A stretch of DNA of 39,132 nt, taken from NCBI RefSeq assembly GCF_004115745.1, contig NZ_QXIL01000021.1, positions 1-39,132 of the forward strand, given 5' to 3'. Below are positions 1,348 through 16,413 of the stretch, piece by piece. Every line of letters begins with the position of its first letter. Positions within the stretch are counted from its first letter, which is position 1. The position numbers and the translations under genes are program-made. The notes below the pieces were generated by a model that saw only the letters and a list, made by a program, of their open reading frames with translations, was not told where the DNA came from and made no database searches. The stretch is from Levilactobacillus suantsaii. GTDB lineage: Bacteria; Bacillota; Bacilli; Lactobacillales; Lactobacillaceae.

Positions 1348-1461
1348 CTAATCAAAATCGTAGGGCAGGCCATATTGGCGTGCTAAGTCTTTGTACGAAG
1401 TCGGCATATGATCGTTATCTTCGATAAACAGTAAACCCATCAGAGCGACTGAGAATTCATT
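1348..1461 (-). pseudogene. immA: ImmA/IrrE metalloprotease gene, 3' fragment
   Basis: Read on the minus strand from 1461 to the TAG at 1348, this gives 37 residues (NEFSVALMGLLFIEDNDH and onward to GLPYDFD) with no start codon of its own. It is the missing C-terminus of the ImmA gene at 3464-3763. Joining GAAGCA (right of the insertion) to AATGAATTC (left of it) restores one frame through LETEA-NEFSVALMG, the conserved E..A..FA helix that follows HExxH in this family. The fragment lies directly outside the left end of the IS605-like element. Confidence 0.85.
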
Positions 1462-1478
1462 AAAATTTTGGCGGGAAA

Positions 1479-1498
1479 CCCATGATTTCAATCATGGG
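1479..1498. repeat. left-end subterminal hairpin of the IS605-like element
   Basis: CCCATGAT-TTCA-ATCATGGG is a perfect 8-bp stem with a 4-nt loop, 17 bp inside the inferred left end. Such imperfect or perfect palindromes are the single-stranded DNA sites that TnpA Y1 transposases of this family bind. Confidence 0.8.
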
Positions 1499-1521
1499 AG
1501 GAACGCCCATGTTTCGCAACG

Positions 1522-1968
1522 TTAGTTGCGTTTTAGCAGAGGCCTTCCCGCCTTCCCCCTTTCTGTTCGTTGGTTCTCAATGTAGTGTTCGACTGTTTCT
1601 TTTGACATATCCCCTAAAGTGCCCATGTAATAGCTTGGCGACCAAAGGTGACCGCCCCAAACTATTTGTTGTGTTTCTGGGTGAATTTTGAACCATTCGC
1701 GTGCTGAGACCCCCTTTAATACCTTGACAATATTGGCCGGCGCGTACTTTGGTTTAAAGCTGATTAGCAGATGGATATGATCAAGCATGACTTCACCTTT
1801 CTCAATTTCAATTTCGTTTTGATTCGCAATGTTTTGCAAGATTGTCAACATCTCCTTTGCTAATCTTGGTGTGTTAAATATTTGTTTCCGATACTTCGTT
1901 ACCCAGACTAAATGGAAGTGAAAGTTATAAACATATCCGCGTTCGTGTTTCACATTTTCTTTTGACAT
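1522..1968 (-). CDS. tnpA: IS200/IS605 transposase TnpA (Y1, HUH family)
   Basis: A 148-residue protein of the usual TnpA length. It shows the N-terminal strand HLVWVTKYRKQIF, the HUH motif HIHLLISF near residues 64-71, and the catalytic tyrosine in TVEHYIENQ near residue 127. It acts as a dimer that cuts and rejoins single-stranded DNA at the element ends ('peel-and-paste' transposition). It is transcribed divergently from tnpB, with about 90 bp between the starts. The C-terminus is intact, ending in a basic tail, so it is likely functional. Confidence 0.95.
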   Translation of the reverse strand: MSKENVKHERGYVYNFHFHLVWVTKYRKQIFNTPRLAKEMLTILQNIANQNEIEIEKGEVMLDHIHLLISFKPKYAPANIVKVLKGVSAREWFKIHPETQQIVWGGHLWSPSYYMGTLGDMSKETVEHYIENQRTERGKAGRPLLKRN

Positions 1969-2060
1969 ACGATTTACTCCTAACGTTTATAGATAAACGA
2001 CTTTGTTATTTAAATGTGGTGACAGTCGTATAATAATTATAGTCTAAGGAGGTGATATAT

Positions 2061-3305
2061 GTGACTAAGAAAATGTCTGAGTTCAAATACCATTACGGAA
2101 TTAAAATGCGAATATTCCCATCTCGTGAGCAGAAACATCAGCTTGACAACAATATCAACGCAAGCCGTTTTGCTTACAACGAGATGGTGGCCATCGACAA
2201 AGAACTATTTCAATTGCGTAAAGTAAAGTGTTACATTGCTTCGGTTGTTAATCGCATTGCCTACCTGCAGAAACGTAAAAACAACACACAAATGTTGTTT
2301 GCACTACATCCTTGGTTATCAGGTACCAATGTAGGTACCGACGTTGTAGATCAAGCACGACGAGCTTATCAGAGCGCGTGGCGTTTATTTCGACAAGTAC
2401 ACAGATCTGGCACACCAAAGTTCCATAAAAAGCAGATGAGTGGCAGCTTTCAGCTCCCAAATCGCTATGCTAAGGTTAAGCCGAATTTGTTCAATGGCAG
2501 TTGCCGTTTTCTCGATTCTAAGCATGTGAAAATTAGCTTGATTGGCCGATTGCGTGTGTCTGGGTCACATAGACGCTTGTTTAGTTGTGGCAATGATGTT
2601 CGTATTGGAACAATCACTGTCTCGCGCGATGTCACTGGGCGTTACTACTTATCTATGCAACTAGGATCGGACACCCCGTTTGTTGCGGGTGGCAAGCAAC
2701 AGATCTCTCCAGTAGGCATTGACCTAAATACTGACAATTTCCTAACTGATTCAAACGGCAACATCGTTGCCAACCCACGTTACTATCGCTCTATCAAGGG
2801 CAAGCTAGCCAAAGCCCAACGTAAACTTTCTCGTCGTGCGCTACGGGCTAAAAAAGAAAATCGGCCGCTTCGTGAAGCTAAGAATTATCAGAAACAACGT
2901 GTATTGGTGGCCACCCTCCAGCGAAAAGTTGCTAATCAACGTAACAACTTTCTACATCTTGTCTCAACAACACTTATCAAGAACCACGATTTAGTTGTTG
3001 CAGAGGAGTTGCGGAGTAAGAATATGTTACGAAACCATGCATTGGCAATGAGCATTGCTGATGTTGGCTGGCGAACTTTTTTAGGCATGCTGGCCTATAA
3101 AGCCGACCTATACGGCCATAAATTTGTCACCGTTAATCCGCGTAACACGACACAAACCTGTAGTGAGTGTGGATATTTGATGTGCGGTGATAAAAAATTG
3201 ACCTTAAAAGATCGTGAATGGACTTGCCCGCAGTGCGGTAATCACCACATTCGCGATTGGAATGCTGCTAAAAACATTCTCAAAAAAGGCTTGGCAAGTG
3301 CTTAA
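2061..3305 (+). CDS. tnpB: TnpB RNA-guided nuclease of IS605 element
   Basis: I use the GTG at 2061, six bases after AAGGAGGTG; upstream codons overlap that ribosome site. The 414-residue protein has the full TnpB layout: N-terminal HTH-like region (IKMRIFPSREQKHQLDNN), RuvC-I Asp in GIDLNTDN, RuvC-II Glu in VVAEELRSKNML, a four-Cys zinc ribbon (CSECG...CPQCG), and RuvC-III Asp in HIRDWNAAKNIL. All catalytic and zinc residues are present. TnpB proteins use an RNA from the element's right end as guide and cut DNA next to a target-adjacent motif. That activity is family knowledge, not shown here. Confidence 0.95.
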   Translation: MTKKMSEFKYHYGIKMRIFPSREQKHQLDNNINASRFAYNEMVAIDKELFQLRKVKCYIASVVNRIAYLQKRKNNTQMLFALHPWLSGTNVGTDVVDQARRAYQSAWRLFRQVHRSGTPKFHKKQMSGSFQLPNRYAKVKPNLFNGSCRFLDSKHVKISLIGRLRVSGSHRRLFSCGNDVRIGTITVSRDVTGRYYLSMQLGSDTPFVAGGKQQISPVGIDLNTDNFLTDSNGNIVANPRYYRSIKGKLAKAQRKLSRRALRAKKENRPLREAKNYQKQRVLVATLQRKVANQRNNFLHLVSTTLIKNHDLVVAEELRSKNMLRNHALAMSIADVGWRTFLGMLAYKADLYGHKFVTVNPRNTTQTCSECGYLMCGDKKLTLKDREWTCPQCGNHHIRDWNAAKNILKKGLASA

Positions 3306-3463
3306 CTTGTTTGTCCGTCTGGCAACCTGCGGGCATAAAAGGCTTTGGTAATTAGCACGTAAGACCTGCATGCAGGCAATTGCTGTATCTAAGCAAATTG
3401 TGGTCGTTGCACCGTTAGGTGCAGTTCTCACAAGCTTCCGACTTTAGTCGGGAGTGGTTGACC
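3306..3463 (+). ncRNA. candidate omega (right-end) RNA with terminal hairpin
   Basis: The 158 bp between the tnpB stop and the inferred right end contain no ORF. They include a GC-rich segment and the palindrome CCGAC-TTTA-GTCGG at 3438-3451, 12 bp from the end. In this family the right end is transcribed as the TnpB guide scaffold, with the guide taken from the flanking DNA just past the element. Here that flank is immA sequence (TGCTTCGGTTTCGAGCTGAC, 3464-3483). The existence of the RNA is inferred from family knowledge. Confidence 0.5.
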
Positions 3464-3763
3464 TGCTTCGGTTTCGAGCTGACCGTGTGCGCGGATACTA
3501 CTTGTATAGTAGCCTACTAGACCCTCTTGTAGAATGGTGTGGCCTAGTTCGTGACCCATAACAAAATATTGGTCTGGCGTATGCCTAATTGCCTCATCGA
3601 GCATGATAATAGGTTGTCCATCATCATAAATCGTTTTTCCTAATGGTAAACGATCAAAATAGCACCATTCTACCTGAATATTAAGTTTTTCAGCAATAGT
3701 GAAAGGGTTGGCAGTGTGATACCGATTCGTCACTGTTTTAACAACGTTACTAATCTTTTCCAA
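3464..3763 (-). pseudogene. immA: ImmA/IrrE metalloprotease gene, 5' part (IS-disrupted)
   Basis: The TTG at 3763 is the likely start (AGGGG upstream, 11 bp after the repressor stop). The 100 host-encoded residues contain the ImmA N-terminus (RYHTANPFTIAEKLNIQV) and the zinc-protease motif HELGH near residue 72. Translation then runs into the insertion element and ends at 3428 after eleven foreign residues. With the 37-residue fragment at 1348-1461 the ancestral protein would be 137 residues, normal for phage ImmA. Such proteases cleave the cognate repressor (ImmR in ICEBs1) to trigger induction. The truncated form keeps HExxH but lacks the downstream helix with the third metal ligand, so it is probably inactive. 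Confidence 0.88.
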
Positions 3764-3774
3764 ATAATCAGCCC

Positions 3775-4137
3775 CTAGTCATGCTTGTGGCGCTTCCAGA
3801 ATATTGCTGTCATAGCCACACGCACTTGTTCTTTTTGCTCTTCTGTCAGGTCTTCACCGCCATAAGTCATAGACCCTTCATTATCATTGAGAAACTTTTC
3901 TAGATCATTAGTATCCTTTGAGTTGGCCCATTGGGGAGTTTGATTTTCTCCAAGAAGGTAGTCTGTGGTGACCTCGAATCTTTTTGCGATTGCTGAGAGC
4001 ACTTCAAAGTCCGGCTGCCTTTTTCCTTGTTCATAAGATGCTAGGGTGGTTTTCGCGATTCCTAATTGCTTGGCCAATTTTGCTTGTGTGAGGCCAGGTT
4101 CTTGTTTTCTAAGTTCTTTAAGCCGAGCTGCAAACAT
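3775..4137 (-). CDS. cI/ImmR-like phage repressor, XRE family
   Basis: A 120-residue protein starting at ATG 4137 after GGGGGAG. Residues 3-62 form an XRE helix-turn-helix (LTQAKLAKQLGIAKTTLASYEQGKRQP then FEVLSAIAKRFEVTTDYLLG). The acidic/basic C-terminal half is short and has no peptidase domain, unlike LexA-type repressors, which fits a repressor removed by an ImmA protease. It is transcribed leftward, divergent from the Cro-like gene, and probably autoregulates through the dyads at 4169-4287. Confidence 0.9.
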   Translation of the reverse strand: MFAARLKELRKQEPGLTQAKLAKQLGIAKTTLASYEQGKRQPDFEVLSAIAKRFEVTTDYLLGENQTPQWANSKDTNDLEKFLNDNEGSMTYGGEDLTEEQKEQVRVAMTAIFWKRHKHD

Positions 4138-4306: not shown

Positions 4307-4558
4307 ATGAGAATGTGGTTGAAACGCTGGAGAGACGTGAATGGTCTTACGCAAAAGCAAGCAGCACGAGCCGTTGAAATCCCTGAAACTACCTTCGCAT
4401 CATACGAGCAAGGGCATCGAAGCCCAAGCGTGGATCGCGCTAAAACTATTGCGGAAAAGATGAATGACATCTCTCGCGGCGAAGACGTAAAGTGGACATA
4501 TTTTTTTGATGACGTGGTACTCATATCGAGTACCAAACGCTCTGAGGAGGTGAGCTGA
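4307..4558 (+). CDS. Cro-like XRE regulator
   Basis: An 83-residue protein with ribosome site AAGGAGATGATAATTT-ATG. Residues 8-50 are an XRE helix-turn-helix (GLTQKQAARAVEIPETTFASYEQGHRSPSV read in pieces). It is the first gene of the rightward early operon, divergent from the repressor, as is typical of Cro. The C-terminal coding sequence contains a further dyad of the operator type (4518-4532). The stop overlaps the next start (TGATG). Confidence 0.88.
   Translation: MRMWLKRWRDVNGLTQKQAARAVEIPETTFASYEQGHRSPSVDRAKTIAEKMNDISRGEDVKWTYFFDDVVLISSTKRSEEVS
4518..4532. promoter_or_regulatory. fifth operator-like dyad, inside the cro-like gene
   Basis: TACTCATATCGAGTA matches the O2 form TACTC-N5-GAGTA and is extended by GG/CC to a 19-bp palindrome (4516-4534). 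It is about 240 bp from O4, a distance suited to looping. Confidence 0.5.
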
Positions 4559-4706: not shown

Positions 4707-5117
4707 CTAGAAATGAAATTTGATGGTTGCAAGACCGTCGATCCCATCCGCAGTTAATTCAACTTCATAGACTTCTCCGTCAAAGCTAAGTCTAGTCAGA
4801 GAATTAATGGTGTTGCCTATCTTGGGGTCTGATACAAGATAGTTGGCCAGCTCTTCACAGTTAAAATCGAATTCTTCTTGATCATCTGTGGTAGTTGGTA
4901 GGTATTCTTTCAGTCCCCAGTCGTATTCAAGGTTCGAGACCATTAGATGGGTCTTCACCGTCTGTAGAAAATTTTCTGCACCGGAAACGATAGCAAGGTC
5001 ACCGTTCTCAAAGACAGTGTCGTTATCGAATCCAACCTTTAGGTCTTTGCCATACGTGTTGGCATCTACGCGGGGCTGGATGTCTGAAAGAATTGGTTTC
5101 TTAGAAATCCATTGCAT
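4707..5117 (-). CDS. orphan gp25/W-like (DUF2634-type) baseplate protein
   Basis: A 136-residue protein starting at ATG 5117 (AAGAGGTGATTAT upstream). The pattern FENGDLAIVSGAENFLQTVK, then YDWGLKEYLP, then ELANYLVSDPKIGNTINSLT and a final pair of strands resembles the gp25/W wedge family (NGDL..VsG.eN..Q.i...L.....E...d...G). The phage's own member of that family is at 38192-38578, yet the two share little sequence. This gene lies on the opposite strand, alone inside the immunity/early region. The assignment rests on motif order only and could be a convergent pattern. Confidence 0.5.
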   Translation of the reverse strand: MQWISKKPILSDIQPRVDANTYGKDLKVGFDNDTVFENGDLAIVSGAENFLQTVKTHLMVSNLEYDWGLKEYLPTTTDDQEEFDFNCEELANYLVSDPKIGNTINSLTRLSFDGEVYEVELTADGIDGLATIKFHF

Positions 5118-5134
5118 ATAATCACCTCTTTTCC

Positions 5135-5149
5135 GGTACTAATTGTACC
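5135..5149. promoter_or_regulatory. palindrome in promoter of the gp25-like gene
   Basis: GGTACTAATTGTACC is a perfect 5-bp inverted repeat with a 5-bp centre. On the minus strand it overlaps a possible -10 TACAAT that has a weak -35 TTAATA 17 bp upstream. It may be an operator for the isolated minus-strand gene. Confidence 0.4.
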
Positions 5150-5197
5150 AGAGAAGGCGATGAGTATTAATTTTTCAAAGAACAAGGAGGTGAGCTA

Positions 5198-9567: not shown

Positions 9568-9767
9568 AGAACGCAATCAGCTATGCTTTAGATAAATACG
9601 ATTTGTACGTTTTACAGAGAGGCATCCGATTTCCGGAAGAGGCAGAGGATTTTGAGGAACTGGCACAGGGCAACGTTGAATCTGATCTATGCCAGGATAT
9701 CTGGGACGCGATTTACGAGAAGCTTGAGGACAAGCTCAGTGAGCTAGACGAGGAGGAACAAGCATGA
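9564..9767 (+). CDS. acidic hypothetical early protein
   Basis: 67 residues overlapping both neighbours by four bases (ATGA on each side). It is acidic in its second half (NVESDLCQDIWDAI, EDKLSELDEEEQA) with no recognised domain. The double overlap supports expression as part of the replication transcript. Confidence 0.65.
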   Translation: MKNAISYALDKYDLYVLQRGIRFPEEAEDFEELAQGNVESDLCQDIWDAIYEKLEDKLSELDEEEQA

Positions 9768-10465
9768 ACGAATTAATCAAGACTTTCAAGCAAAATGACG
9801 GCACGGTGGCCGTCGATGCACGAGACCTGCACGACTTTCTGGAGGTCGGCAAGGACTTCACGTCGTGGCTCAAGGACATGATTGACTACGGCTTTGAAGA
9901 GGGTAAGGACTTTACCCCGTTTTCGGTGAAAAGTACTGGTGGCCGGCCCCGCGCCGGTTATGCGCTCACCCTGGATATGGCCAAGGAGTTGTCAATGATT
10001 CAACGGACCGATAAGGGCAAGCAGGCCCGTGAGTACTTCATCACGATGGAGAAACGGGCTAAGCAAGTCACCTTGCCGATGGCCCCCGAGGAAAAGTTGA
10101 TGCTGGTCATGGAGAACGCCAATCGGGCCAACAAACGACTAACTGGGGTTGAGGAGCGTATGGACGAATTCGAGGCCAATCAAAAAATGGACCCAACAGA
10201 GTACAGTACCGTCAGTCATGGCGTTACCCGCGCAGTTAATCGATATGTCGGTGAGCATCATCTTCAACTGACGCGTGATCAACGCGCGGAACTCTACAAG
10301 GATATCAGCACTGGGCTCAACAAGGTGTGTGGCGTTCACACGCGAACTCAAATTCGTGCTAAGGACTTCAACAGGGCCATGAAGTATATCTACGACTGGG
10401 AACCCAACACCGCAACCAAGATGATGATGCAGCAGGCCGGTGAGCAGACTGCCATGGAGGTGTAG
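9764..10465 (+). CDS. phage antirepressor, AntA/AntB + ORF6C
   Basis: A 233-residue two-domain protein. Residues 1-95 are AntA/AntB (VDARDLHDFLEVGKDFTSWL, YGFEEGKDFTPF, YALTLDMAKELSMIQRTDKG, KQAREYFITMEK). After a helical linker, residues 125-215 match ORF6C (VTRAVNRYVGEHHLQL and GLNKVCGVHTRTQIR). Antirepressors of this kind interfere with the lysogenic repressor. With immA broken in this phage, this gene is a possible alternative induction route (inference). Confidence 0.9.
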   Translation: MNELIKTFKQNDGTVAVDARDLHDFLEVGKDFTSWLKDMIDYGFEEGKDFTPFSVKSTGGRPRAGYALTLDMAKELSMIQRTDKGKQAREYFITMEKRAKQVTLPMAPEEKLMLVMENANRANKRLTGVEERMDEFEANQKMDPTEYSTVSHGVTRAVNRYVGEHHLQLTRDQRAELYKDISTGLNKVCGVHTRTQIRAKDFNRAMKYIYDWEPNTATKMMMQQAGEQTAMEV

Positions 10466-13908: not shown

Positions 13909-13980
13909 ACACGCATAGCTTAGCCGGAAAAGCAGTGGTCTCCTAAACCACCGACGCGGGTTCGAATCCCGCTGCGTGCA
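13909..13980 (+). tRNA. tRNA-Arg(CCT)
   Basis: Cloverleaf: acceptor ACACGCA/TGCGTGC (first pair A-C mismatched), D-stem GCTT/AAGC, anticodon stem GTGGT/ACCAC with loop CTCCTAA (anticodon CCT), T-arm GCGGG-TTCGAAT-CCCGC, discriminator A. CCA is not encoded. It reads the rare AGG codon. Confidence 0.88.
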
Positions 13981-14008
13981 TTGTGGTGGAATGATGAACC
14001 GGCCACAA
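13981..14008 (+). other. structured spacer after tRNA-Arg(CCT)
   Basis: Starts directly at the tRNA 3' end: TTGTGG (13981-13986) pairs perfectly with CCACAA (14003-14008). The first of several spacers in this island closed by a stem that begins with TTG. Confidence 0.45.
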
Positions 14009-14026
14009 GATTACCTCCGATCAGGA

Positions 14027-14084
14027 ACGTGCATAGCTCAATGGCAGAGCAAAGAAGATACGGGTTCGACTCCCGTTGCACGTA
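14027..14084 (+). pseudogene. tRNA lacking the anticodon arm
   Basis: A 58-nt tRNA-like gene with a perfect 7-bp acceptor (ACGTGCA/TGCACGT), U8-A9, a perfect D-arm (GCTC-AATGGCA-GAGC), a perfect T-arm (ACGGG-TTCGACT-CCCGT) and discriminator A. Only AAAGAAGAT lies between the D and T arms, where about 23 nt are expected. The anticodon arm is therefore missing, while every other stem is undamaged. It cannot decode. It is either a clean deletion remnant or an RNA kept for another use. Confidence 0.75.
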
Positions 14085-14147
14085 TTGGCGAGTATTACAA
14101 AATGGGAGGCGACTCCCCTTCATTTAAACGCATGTTCAGCTCGCCAA
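14085..14147 (+). other. structured RNA spacer with 8-bp closing stem
   Basis: TTGGCGAG (14085-14092) pairs perfectly with CTCGCCAA (14140-14147). Inside is GGGAG-GCGA-CTCCC (14104-14117). It begins at the 3' end of the anticodon-less tRNA. It contains no credible ORF, T-loop or anticodon. Confidence 0.55.
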
Positions 14148-14189
14148 ACTCCTTCATAAAATTGACCGGCCTGCATAACCGGTCAGTAG

Positions 14190-14263
14190 GGACCTTTAAC
14201 TCAGTCGGCTAGAGTAGACGGCTCATAACCGTTCGGTCGTAGGTTCGAGTCCTACAAGGTCCA
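14190..14263 (+). tRNA. tRNA-Met(CAT)
   Basis: Acceptor GGACCTT/AAGGTCC perfect, D-stem ACTC/GAGT, anticodon stem GACGG/CCGTT with loop CTCATAA (CAT), T-arm GTAGG-TTCGAGT-CCTAC, discriminator A. No G-C run is visible in the anticodon stem, so it is not an obvious initiator. It could be elongator Met or a lysidine-type Ile(CAT). Confidence 0.9.
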
Positions 14264-14322
14264 TCGGGCGCAAATAAACCTTAGGAGATGGACCCTCCCG
14301 TTCATTGATTGAGTGTCCAAGT

Positions 14323-14404
14323 GTGATCGTAACTGGCGTTGGCCTGCCAGAAGAGGGCGGTTTGAATTTGAATCCGTGCGCGGTTCGATTCCACACCAAT
14401 CACA
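14323..14404 (+). other. tRNA-like element A
   Basis: Acceptor GTGATCG (14323-14329) pairs with CAATCAC (14397-14403) except one C-A. U-A follows at 14330-14331. CTGGC-GTTGGCCT-GCCAG resembles a D-arm with G18-G19. The 3' half has TTCGATT with a degenerate T-stem and discriminator A. No credible anticodon stem exists. Its last 26 bases (14382-14407) are identical to those of element B at 14733-14758. It may be a decayed tRNA or a tRNA-like RNA. Confidence 0.45.
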
Positions 14405-14445
14405 TTGACCTAAGCAAGTCGCTAAACTACTCAAGCACATAAAAC

Positions 14446-14519
14446 GTTCGCCTAGCTCATCTGGATAGAGCAACAGACTTCTAATCTGTAGGTGGTGGGT
14501 TCGATCCCCACGGCGAACA
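14446..14519 (+). tRNA. tRNA-Arg(TCT)
   Basis: Acceptor GTTCGCC/GGCGAAC, D-arm GCTC..GAGC, anticodon stem ACAGA/TCTGT with loop CTTCTAA (TCT), T-arm GTGGG-TTCGATC-CCCAC, discriminator A. All stems perfect. It decodes AGA, a rare arginine codon in most lactobacilli. Confidence 0.95.
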
Positions 14520-14523
14520 TAAC

Positions 14524-14597
14524 GGACTTTTAGCTCAGTTGGTTAGAGCCTCCAGCTCATAACTGGATGGTCGTAGGTTCGAGTCCTACATGGTCCA
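14524..14597 (+). tRNA. tRNA-Met(CAT), second copy
   Basis: Acceptor GGACTTT/ATGGTCC (one mismatch and one G-T), D-arm GCTC..GAGC, anticodon stem TCCAG/CTGGA with loop CTCATAA (CAT), T-arm GTAGG-TTCGAGT-CCTAC, discriminator A. The T-arm is identical to that of the first Met tRNA, so the pair probably arose by duplication. One of the two may be a lysidine-modified Ile tRNA. Confidence 0.88.
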
Positions 14598-14605
14598 TTG
14601 GTCAG

Positions 14606-14680
14606 CAACCACGGTATGGCGCAATACCCAAATGCGAGTTCTATACGCTAAGCTTAAAAGCGTAAGTCGACGGGTGGTTG
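14606..14680 (+). other. structured RNA segment that can pair with element B's acceptor
   Basis: CAACCAC (14606-14612) pairs perfectly with GTGGTTG (14674-14680). Inside are GGTAT-GGCGCA-ATACC (14613-14628) and TACGCT/AGCGTA. GTGGTTG is also the 5' acceptor strand of tRNA-like element B, so the two folds exclude each other. Confidence 0.4.
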
Positions 14681-14755
14681 AAACGTGGCTAAAATAGAAA
14701 AAGTCCACGTCAGGAGGCTCATTACCGCGTGTGGTTCGATTCCACACCAATCACA
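14674..14755 (+). other. tRNA-like element B
   Basis: GTGGTTG (14674-14680) pairs with CAATCAC (14748-14754; one G-T), discriminator A at 14755. The T-arm is perfect with six pairs (GTGTGG-TTCGATT-CCACAC), giving a 13-bp acceptor/T stack. Where D and anticodon arms should be there is a single hairpin ACGTGG-(16 nt)-CCACGT (14683-14710). No anticodon is recognisable. Confidence 0.45.
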
Positions 14756-14816
14756 TTGCCCCGCGGGTGGCCTTGTAACCTCGCGTTAGTCCTGATGAAG
14801 ACCGAAAATTCATCGT

Positions 14817-14950
14817 GTGCTTGTGGCGGAATAGGTAGACGCACTGGAATGAAGTAGGCTATGGCGGAGTCGCCTTATCGACTCACCCGCGCCACCACGG
14901 AACTTCATTTTGGATAAGGCATGTGGAGGTGCAAATCCTCACCAGGTCAT
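14817..14950 (+). pseudogene. tRNA-Leu-like element with expanded central helix
   Basis: The segment GTGGCGGAATAGGTAGACGC (14823-14842) is the D-arm signature of class II tRNA-Leu. Next, AATGAAGT (14848-14855) pairs perfectly with ACTTCATT (14902-14909) and encloses a second hairpin (TGGCG-GAGTCG-CCTTAT-CGACTC...CGCCA, 14862-14894). A T-arm-like GAGG-TGCAAAT-CCTC follows at 14926-14940. The acceptor strands do not pair well. It is either a pseudogene with a roughly 50-nt insertion in the anticodon arm or a different RNA with a Leu-like D-arm. Confidence 0.45.
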
Positions 14951-14952
14951 AG

Positions 14953-14975
14953 CAGTGGGCCCGGTAACCCCACTG
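14953..14975 (+). other. GC-rich hairpin in tRNA island
   Basis: CAGTGGG (14953-14959) pairs perfectly with CCCACTG (14969-14975), with a 9-nt loop. It is not followed by a T run, so a processing or stability element is more likely than a terminator. Confidence 0.45.
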
Positions 14976-15033
14976 TGAAACCTTCCTTCATTAGTATTCT
15001 CTTTCTTCCCCAGTCTTGCAGGGCCGGGGGCTT

Positions 15034-15106
15034 GAATCCTTAGCTCAGCTGGTAGAGCACCGGTCTTTTAAACCGGGGGTCGTGGGATTGAAGCCCACAG
15101 GGTTCA
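15034..15106 (+). tRNA. tRNA-Lys(TTT)
   Basis: Acceptor GAATCCT/AGGGTTC, D-arm GCTC..GAGC, anticodon stem CCGGT/ACCGG with loop CTTTTAA (TTT), T-stem GTGGG/CCCAC, discriminator A. The T-loop is ATTGAAG instead of the near-universal TTCRANY, so T54-T55-C56 is lost. That should weaken the D/T-loop contact. Only two bases (TT) separate it from tRNA-Asn. Confidence 0.88.
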
Positions 15107-15108
15107 TT

Positions 15109-15180
15109 GGAGTCTTAGCTCAGTGGCAGAGCGTCTGGTTGTTAACCAGAGGGTCGCAGGTTCGAATCCTGCAGGCTTCG
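15109..15180 (+). tRNA. tRNA-Asn(GTT)
   Basis: Acceptor GGAGTCT/AGGCTTC (two wobble pairs), D-arm GCTC-AGTGGCA-GAGC, anticodon stem TCTGG/CCAGA with loop TTGTTAA (GTT), T-arm GCAGG-TTCGAAT-CCTGC, discriminator G. Confidence 0.92.
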
Positions 15181-15237
15181 TTGGACACCATAATAATAAA
15201 AATAACTCAAATGGACTACAGACTTTGTGGTGTCCAA
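15181..15237 (+). other. structured RNA spacer with 10-bp closing stem
   Basis: TTGGACACCA (15181-15190) pairs perfectly with TGGTGTCCAA (15228-15237) around a 37-nt A/T-rich loop. It begins at the base after tRNA-Asn and has the same TTGG...CCAA frame as the spacer at 14085-14147. Confidence 0.6.
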
Positions 15238-15317: not shown

Positions 15318-15342
15318 AGATACATAAATTGAGGTGATTAAG

Positions 15343-16413
15343 ATGGGCAAGCTAGTCCGGGAAGAGTTCTACAAAATCGCTGGCGTTAAGCAACACGCCG
15401 AGTTTGAGCAGTATCTAAAGGACATCCTTTTCAAGCCAGACGAGCGCCAAGAGTTTTACAAGGCCATGCTGCGGATTAGCACAGACGTCTACGTCGACAG
15501 CTTCCGGGCCTACTTTGAAGAGTACGCCGCAGAGCGCAAGGCCAATCAGCAGGACTATACGCCGGACACCGTGGCCCACATCTTGGCGGCCATCACGCGC
15601 AACAACCTCCAGGATTCCAATGGATGGTCGGGATATGATCCAACGGCCGGGACAGGTTCATTACTGATTCAGAAGTGGAAGGACGACCAGCTAGCCGAGA
15701 ATCCGCTCACGACCTACGCGCCTCACAATTACTTGTACATGGCTCAAGAGATGGCTGACAACGCCATTCCGTATTTGCTACACAACCTAGCACTGCGGGG
15801 AATGAATTGCGTTGTGATACACGGAGACACGTTGGAACGGACGGCCAAACAAGTCTATTTCGTTCAGAACGACAATGACGATTTCTTAGGATTTTCGTCA
15901 ATCAACGTGATGCCCCACACCGATGAAATTAAGGAACAATTTGAAATCAGTGGGTGGGAAGAAGAGACCATTGACCACATTGAAAGTGGCTTGGTTAAGT
16001 TCTGGCCTACTTTGGCACCGATGCAGAAGAAAGCTTTAGAGATTAATCCGGACCCAATCGCTGGGACGTATGAGAAACCCAGTGACCACTTGCAACTGAA
16101 AGATATTGCCGCAGTCGAACGCGCGAAAGCAAAAAAAGTGTACCCCGCCGGGACGATAGTGATTCAGATGTCGGCGACGCGGGGGCAAATCGGTTTGCTA
16201 GAATCCAGTGGTAGGGTCGGTACCCAGTACGCTTGTATCCAAACACCGTTCACACCGGGCTTCGTCTTCTACATGCTAAAAGTGCGGGCACCGCGCTGGT
16301 TCCATCGGGTTCAGGATGGTCTAAACCTCAAGTTGAAGGACATCGAAGATATTTCGGTGGCCATCACATTAGCAACACGGGAAGAAGAGTACGAGCAGTT
16401 ATCATTATTTTAG
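15343..16413 (+). CDS. DNA methylase-like/HsdS-like fusion without NPPY motif
   Basis: ATG 15343 lies seven bases after GAGGTGA. The 356 residues begin like type I modification subunits: a helical N-terminus, a SAM-binding motif YDPTAGTGSLLIQKW near residue 98, then YLYMAQEMADNAIPYLLHNL and HGDTLERT. The catalytic NPPF/Y expected next is replaced by SSINVMPHTDE. From about residue 246 the sequence looks like half an HsdS specificity subunit (LQLKDIAAVERAKAK, YPAGTIVIQMSATRGQIGLL, DGLNLKLKDIEDISVAI). It could bind SAM and a DNA half-site, but methylation is doubtful. No restriction subunit is nearby. Confidence 0.72.
   Translation: MGKLVREEFYKIAGVKQHAEFEQYLKDILFKPDERQEFYKAMLRISTDVYVDSFRAYFEEYAAERKANQQDYTPDTVAHILAAITRNNLQDSNGWSGYDPTAGTGSLLIQKWKDDQLAENPLTTYAPHNYLYMAQEMADNAIPYLLHNLALRGMNCVVIHGDTLERTAKQVYFVQNDNDDFLGFSSINVMPHTDEIKEQFEISGWEEETIDHIESGLVKFWPTLAPMQKKALEINPDPIAGTYEKPSDHLQLKDIAAVERAKAKKVYPAGTIVIQMSATRGQIGLLESSGRVGTQYACIQTPFTPGFVFYMLKVRAPRWFHRVQDGLNLKLKDIEDISVAITLATREEEYEQLSLF

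Follow-up and report, generated by a model that had tools for sequence, protein, structure and literature searches.

Here we report that immA, the gene of an M78-family metalloprotease, is interrupted by a 2002-bp element of the IS200/IS605 family in a contractile-tailed prophage of Levilactobacillus suantsaii. The stretch of DNA analysed, referred to as the window, has a length of 39,132 bp and is the entire contig NZ_QXIL01000021.1 (C13) of a Levilactobacillus-like genome assembled to 2.43 Mb in 70 contigs (GCF_004115745.1), with a completeness of 99.88% by the tool's estimate. Our reading, which we hold with good confidence, is that an ordinary insertion of this family directly 3′ of the sequence TTCAT broke codon 101 of immA, that the remaining ImmA protein is probably inactive and prophage induction probably weaker, and that the TnpB nuclease of the element could target intact immA. 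The insertion is of an ordinary kind, and a TnpB guide directed against intact immA would follow from how such elements work.

The split immA gene and its uninterrupted relatives

The 5′ part of immA lies on the reverse strand at 3463-3763 and holds codons 1-100 and the first base of codon 101, including the HELGH motif. The 3′ part, on the same strand at 1348-1460, runs from the last two bases of codon 101 to the stop codon; uninterrupted relatives have it directly joined to the 5′ part. The reading frame that is now open (3428-3763, reverse strand) encodes 100 native residues followed by 11 others, the first of which spans the junction. Assignment to the M78 family rests on the N-terminal piece passing Pfam Peptidase_M78 (23.2 bits against a cut-off of 22), on an HExxH motif within that domain, on the adjacent gene of a helix-turn-helix (HTH) repressor and on a fold comparison that places the protein with the IrrE/PprI-like fold. 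A sequence search of solved structures with a relative's ImmA gave one match at E 0.8; only the fold comparison was informative.

Using the N-terminal half as query, we collected 74 related loci, 10 from genomes and 64 from viral contigs; many are near-identical Lactiplantibacillus alleles, some of them one strain in two collections, and the independent cases are fewer. The named hosts of the closest immA relatives are Levilactobacillus. The junction is read through in 72 of the 74 loci, all of which encode an uninterrupted ImmA of 136-138 residues with aspartate (D) at codon 101, in the context ETEA-D-EFS. The remaining two, L008 and L011, are broken in other ways. When the window is aligned to empty sites, its flanks stop at 1460, restart at 3463 and are contiguous in L004, L012, L013, L014, L022 and L121; L004, L013 and L121 are identical around the junction and probably represent one strain, leaving four distinct empty-site cases. 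Zero bases have been lost or duplicated (1460|3463). Because the flanks are contiguous in uninterrupted loci, the element is 1461-3462, without loss or duplication. The insertion is not a chance arrangement, since 72 of the 74 loci continue through the junction and TCAT stands before the element at five of five sites read.

These results agree in large part with a preliminary description of the same DNA, which had recognized an IS605-type element between two pieces of immA and had called the insertion precise and scar-free. The N-terminal piece that it delimited (3464-3763, reverse strand, with HELGH) gives the Peptidase_M78 match, the piece at 1348-1461 on the same strand is its matching tail, 2002 bp lie between them and the predicted uninterrupted length of 137 residues fits the range of the 72 loci. 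Two details had to be corrected. The limits given for the element, 1462-3463, shift one base to the left at the empty sites, and the junction had been read as LETEA-N-EF, with an asparagine (N) that stems from an element base and is replaced by D in 72 of 72 uninterrupted loci. Aligning homologues across the junction, a check proposed in that description, thus supported the predicted continuation and refuted the predicted residue. Its expectation that the genome holds no second intact immA was likewise borne out: none was found in the 70-contig assembly at E 0.001, a relative's ImmA matching only the two halves and Pfam M78 matching in one place.

We considered whether the broken gene bears a mark of relaxed constraint. 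Residues 118 and 121 differ from those of six close relatives, but H118 is present in 55 of the 72 uninterrupted loci, and the idea was rejected; T121 is found in none of the 72.

Other immA copies are also broken. In L008, a Lactiplantibacillus prophage titled L. herbarum, the gene is interrupted at the same codon by the end of an IS5-family element (L008 5296-5328, L163 1-40), with TGA on both sides as an apparent 3-bp target repeat. L011 (L. huananensis) carries at about 5090-5150 a degenerate immA with, by eye, an inverted repeat where the frame breaks. L159 (211-345), L160 (771-905) and L161 (2468-2578) each contain a piece of immA that is confined to the C-terminal part and begins at about residue 91-97. 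Codon 101 as an insertion hot spot was rejected as well, L008 being just one further case among the 74 loci.

The element, its target and its presumed guide RNA

The element has the features of its family: a Y1 (HUH) transposase, hairpins at both ends and insertion directly 3′ of a fixed motif without target duplication, as seen from the empty-site alignments and full-length copies. Gene tnpA (1522-1968, reverse strand) encodes the transposase of 148 residues (Pfam Y1_Tnp, 137 bits over residues 13-133), whose solved homologues include the ISHp608 transposase and are led by chain 2xm3 at E 3.9e-32. Gene tnpB (2052-3305, forward strand) encodes a member of the RNA-guided nuclease family of up to 417 residues, recognized as TnpB by the Pfam domains Cas12f1-like_TNB and OrfB_IS605 and by its relation to solved TnpB proteins (8h1j/8bf8, E 4.9e-38). 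Three residues, D, E and D, which we take to be the catalytic RuvC residues of TnpB, are conserved by eye in one alignment to a TnpB-like nuclease designed by artificial intelligence. The two genes are divergent, which is the IS605 arrangement, and both frames are open. On the forward strand, the left end can form a subterminal hairpin as single-stranded DNA at 1470-1507 (-10.7 kcal/mol, z -2.04, 3 of 200 shuffles at least as stable), and the right end one at 3434-3455 (centroid structure; minimum -6.0 kcal/mol, z -1.94, 11 of 200 shuffles at least as stable). These z values are modest; the right-end hairpin covaries: it is helix 5 of the consensus RNA structure described below, and both sides have changed in 4 of the 9 pairs of this helix.

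The target TTCAT occupies 1456-1460 on the forward strand, directly 5′ of the left end. The corresponding bases are TTCAT in L077, ATCAT in L078, CTCAT in L079 and TTCAT in L115, so that the core TCAT precedes the left end at five of the five sites whose left flank was read; L082 is the L078 site, L117 is the L079 site and L116 begins inside the element. At their right ends these copies read TTGAC, with TTGAT in L079, and one or the other ends each of 23 more distant copies (L083-L107 without L085 and L097), of which only right ends were read. On the other strand TCAT reads ATGA, and two plasmid copies lie directly before the annotated start of a reverse-strand gene (L077 184-399, L078 1-399).

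Plasmids of L. brevis and of two strains of Secundilactobacillus paracollinoides, together with one IMG/VR contig, carry full-length copies with 98.8-98.9% identity; the H4 and H6 plasmids hold the element in 2 and 3 places, these copies being read in part. No second copy was found in the assembly itself at E 0.001. Something related to the element is present in 17 of 35 genomes surveyed across the genus, and a full-length near-identical copy only in this genome and in G005. Relative to the four close copies, the tnpA product differs at 1-4 residues and that of tnpB at 3-5. Because these proteins differ so little, the element may well be active.

Like ISDra2 and IS608, the element has a Y1 transposase, TnpB and subterminal hairpins, and it inserts on the 3′ side of a short, fixed motif without duplicating its target. 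Set against the target motifs and organization of those two elements, it is distinguished by its motif TCAT, its right end TTGAC or TTGAT and its divergent tnpA and tnpB. It also resembles IStrons in being an IS605-type element within a gene; unlike them, it has no group I intron. Comparison of the window with Rfam at gathering scores returned seven tRNA matches only and no group I intron, which rules out an IStron; for the same reason repair at the RNA level is not expected.

The right end of the element, at 3323-3462 on the forward strand, is the presumed scaffold of the omegaRNA that guides TnpB, beginning 17 bases after the tnpB stop codon. To derive a consensus structure, we used the final 140 bases from each of 29 right ends, of which 28 are distinct; L078 and L082, which are one site, were left out. 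The structure contains 46 pairs; 98.6% of its cells are paired, and in 73 cells both sides have changed. When the pairing partners were slid, only 33.6-40.7% of cells paired and at most 14 had changes on both sides. None of 500 shuffles reached either 98.6% paired or 73 such cells, in a control that is lenient because the right-end sequences are related. Less telling are the 11 pairs with changes on both sides, a number reached by 12 of 500 shuffles, and the pair types, reached by 260 of 500. The structure is, to judge from these alignments, what an omegaRNA scaffold should look like.

Directly after the right end, the presumed 20-nt guide of this copy (3463-3482, forward strand) is antisense immA sequence. 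TTCAT followed by the guide matches intact immA at 20 of 20 positions in L004, L013 and L022 (3 of the 74 loci, representing two distinct prophages), and L012 matches at 19 of 20 with TTCAT before. TCAT stands at the guide-adjacent place in 61 of the 74 loci, 57 of which carry 5-8 guide mismatches. JNU_P2, an isolated phage of L. brevis, encodes an ImmA with 97% identity to the L012 protein; it carries TTCGT where the motif would be TTCAT and would therefore not be a good TnpB target. Within the genome itself, motif plus guide occurs at up to 3 mismatches only at 3459-3478, at the right end of the element, with 2 mismatches that both fall in the motif; a backward control pattern also gave one match.

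Because the presumed guide and TCAT match the intact immA of relatives, TnpB might cut these genes. An RNA running from the right end into immA would direct TnpB to intact alleles with TCAT, such cutting would keep or spread the element, and the interrupted allele, which has no motif beside the guide, would be spared. The scheme resembles the gene drive by IS200/605 TnpB on plasmids described in a preprint (PMC11870625), in that TnpB would use sequence from its insertion site as guide and cut copies lacking the element. There the drive is shown on multicopy plasmids, whereas the putative target in our case is the intact immA of related phages.

Repressor, induction and competing explanations

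ImmA of the mobile element ICEBs1 cleaves its repressor. ICEBs1 and prophages of Gram-positive bacteria have a short HTH repressor adjoining an M78 metalloprotease, and the same arrangement is found here: an ImmR-like repressor of 120 residues (3775-4137, reverse strand; Pfam HTH_3, 60.6 bits) adjoins immA. By analogy with ICEBs1 and with the pneumococcal prophages discussed below (PMC12637031), intact ImmA of the present prophage would be expected to cleave this repressor. No peptidase domain is recognisable in the repressor, in which only HTH families exceed the Pfam cut-off, as the preliminary description had held in denying it a self-cleavage domain. Repressors encoded upstream of immA in L002-L075 were compared, giving 30 distinct readings with that of the window included, some of which differ only in the assumed start; they share their C-terminal half and have exchanged their HTH halves. 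Such a pattern would fit an action of ImmA on the C-terminal part of the repressor.

The course of events begins with insertion directly after TTCAT in the antisense strand of immA, whereby codon 101 was interrupted. In a model of a close relative's ImmA, the break falls inside helix 93-116, which follows the HELGH helix. With this modelled helix broken and the final 37 residues missing, the 111-residue remnant is probably inactive; cleavage of the repressor upon DNA damage would then be lost or weak, and the lysogen more stable. Pneumococcal ImmAR prophages have the same layout, from which the present one differs in its interrupted immA. In one of them, phi08B02743, excision was abolished and the response to mitomycin C reduced when immA was disrupted, and an ImmAR-independent activation route is also reported (PMC12637031). 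Loss of ImmA function, and hence weaker induction, is likely in the present prophage, and induction is expected to be weak rather than absent. The preliminary description had proposed a lysogen that responds poorly or is locked: poor induction is a reasonable inference in light of the pneumococcal knockout, and "locked" is too strong because an ImmAR-independent route is known and an anti-repressor gene is predicted here.

Several observations weigh against this interpretation. The predicted anti-repressor gene (9764-10465, forward strand; phrog_373, E 8.9e-52) could provide an ImmA-independent induction route. Both contig ends lie inside the phage, and nothing in the assembly was recognised as a phage-type integrase, so that the prophage may lack parts for causes that have nothing to do with immA. 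In the integrase search PF07508 matches nowhere and PF00589 in four places: twice on contig C33, in frames of 319 and 302 residues that are XerC/XerD-like by size only, and once each on C70, among metabolic genes, and C42, a 4.6-kb contig with arsenic-type genes, the surroundings of the last two being not phage-like by eye. A less probable account is decay, in which the prophage had become defective beforehand and the insertion, as one loss among several, made no difference by itself. The missing integrase and the broken immA copies elsewhere (L008, L011 and more partial copies) favour such decay, which is compatible with inactivation of ImmA by the element; against it, genes for replication, packaging, head, sheath, tape measure and baseplate can be recognised and have open frames, and the missing part may fall in an assembly gap, since both contig ends cut the phage. 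That the truncated protein of 111 residues still works, making the insertion nearly neutral, is most improbable. It retains HELGH and the glutamates before codon 101, and model confidence is lower immediately ahead of the break (mean pLDDT 76 for block 91-100), but the lost part is modelled with high confidence (mean pLDDT 93-96 for blocks 101-130) and holds 15 positions invariant in 20 chosen relatives.

The preliminary description had also seen in the element a possible genetic switch, whose excision would restore induction. In such a scheme a fraction of the cells would lose the element precisely and regain a whole immA, chiefly when DNA damage lays single strands bare. Precise excision is a property of the IS200/IS605 family, the insertion is exactly scar-free and the tnpA frame is open and close to that of the four near-identical copies. 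Excision of ISDra2 derivatives rises about 10-fold after UV or gamma irradiation (PMC2806898). Of the 75 loci read (the 74 plus the window), however, just one has the interrupted allele, nothing ties the element to phage control and its near-identical copies sit at other sites, on plasmids. With the insertion present in one genome, no sign of excision and only the general ability of the family to draw on, we regard a switch as highly unlikely. Inactivation of ImmA by an ordinary insertion could also be joined to TnpB activity and damage-stimulated precise excision: an incoming related phage that carries TCAT and whose immA matches would be cut and then either lost, amounting to superinfection exclusion, or repaired from the prophage, gaining the element and losing immA, so that the element would serve as both induction lock and phage gene drive. 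This fuller scenario is improbable as a whole.

Prophage setting and significance

The phage genes recognised on the contig encode an Erf-like annealing protein, a replication initiation protein, terminase, portal, major head protein, sheath, tape measure and baseplate. The lysogeny module, at the left contig end, consists of the HTH repressor gene, immA and a divergent HTH gene that is Cro-like by position (4307-4558, forward strand; Pfam HTH_3, 36.5 bits). Downstream of immA, at the contig end, lies a gene for a DUF4041 protein (phrog_1847, 58-972), whose place is taken by other genes, by eye, in the seven relatives compared. A tRNA cluster inside the prophage (13909-15181) counts six genes by ARAGORN or seven by Rfam and is adjoined by a DNA methyltransferase-like gene (15334-16413).

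A literature search turned up no paper on an IS605 element in immA; an insertion sequence reportedly made a temperate phage of Lactobacillus casei virulent. The prophage described here is a clean example from nature of an ImmA-type induction protease inactivated by a transposon, and it lends itself to asking to what extent prophages of this kind rely on ImmA. Poor inducibility of its prophage would also make the strain of practical interest for fermentation. If TnpB does target the intact immA of relatives, the gene-drive result obtained with plasmids would be extended to temperate phages.
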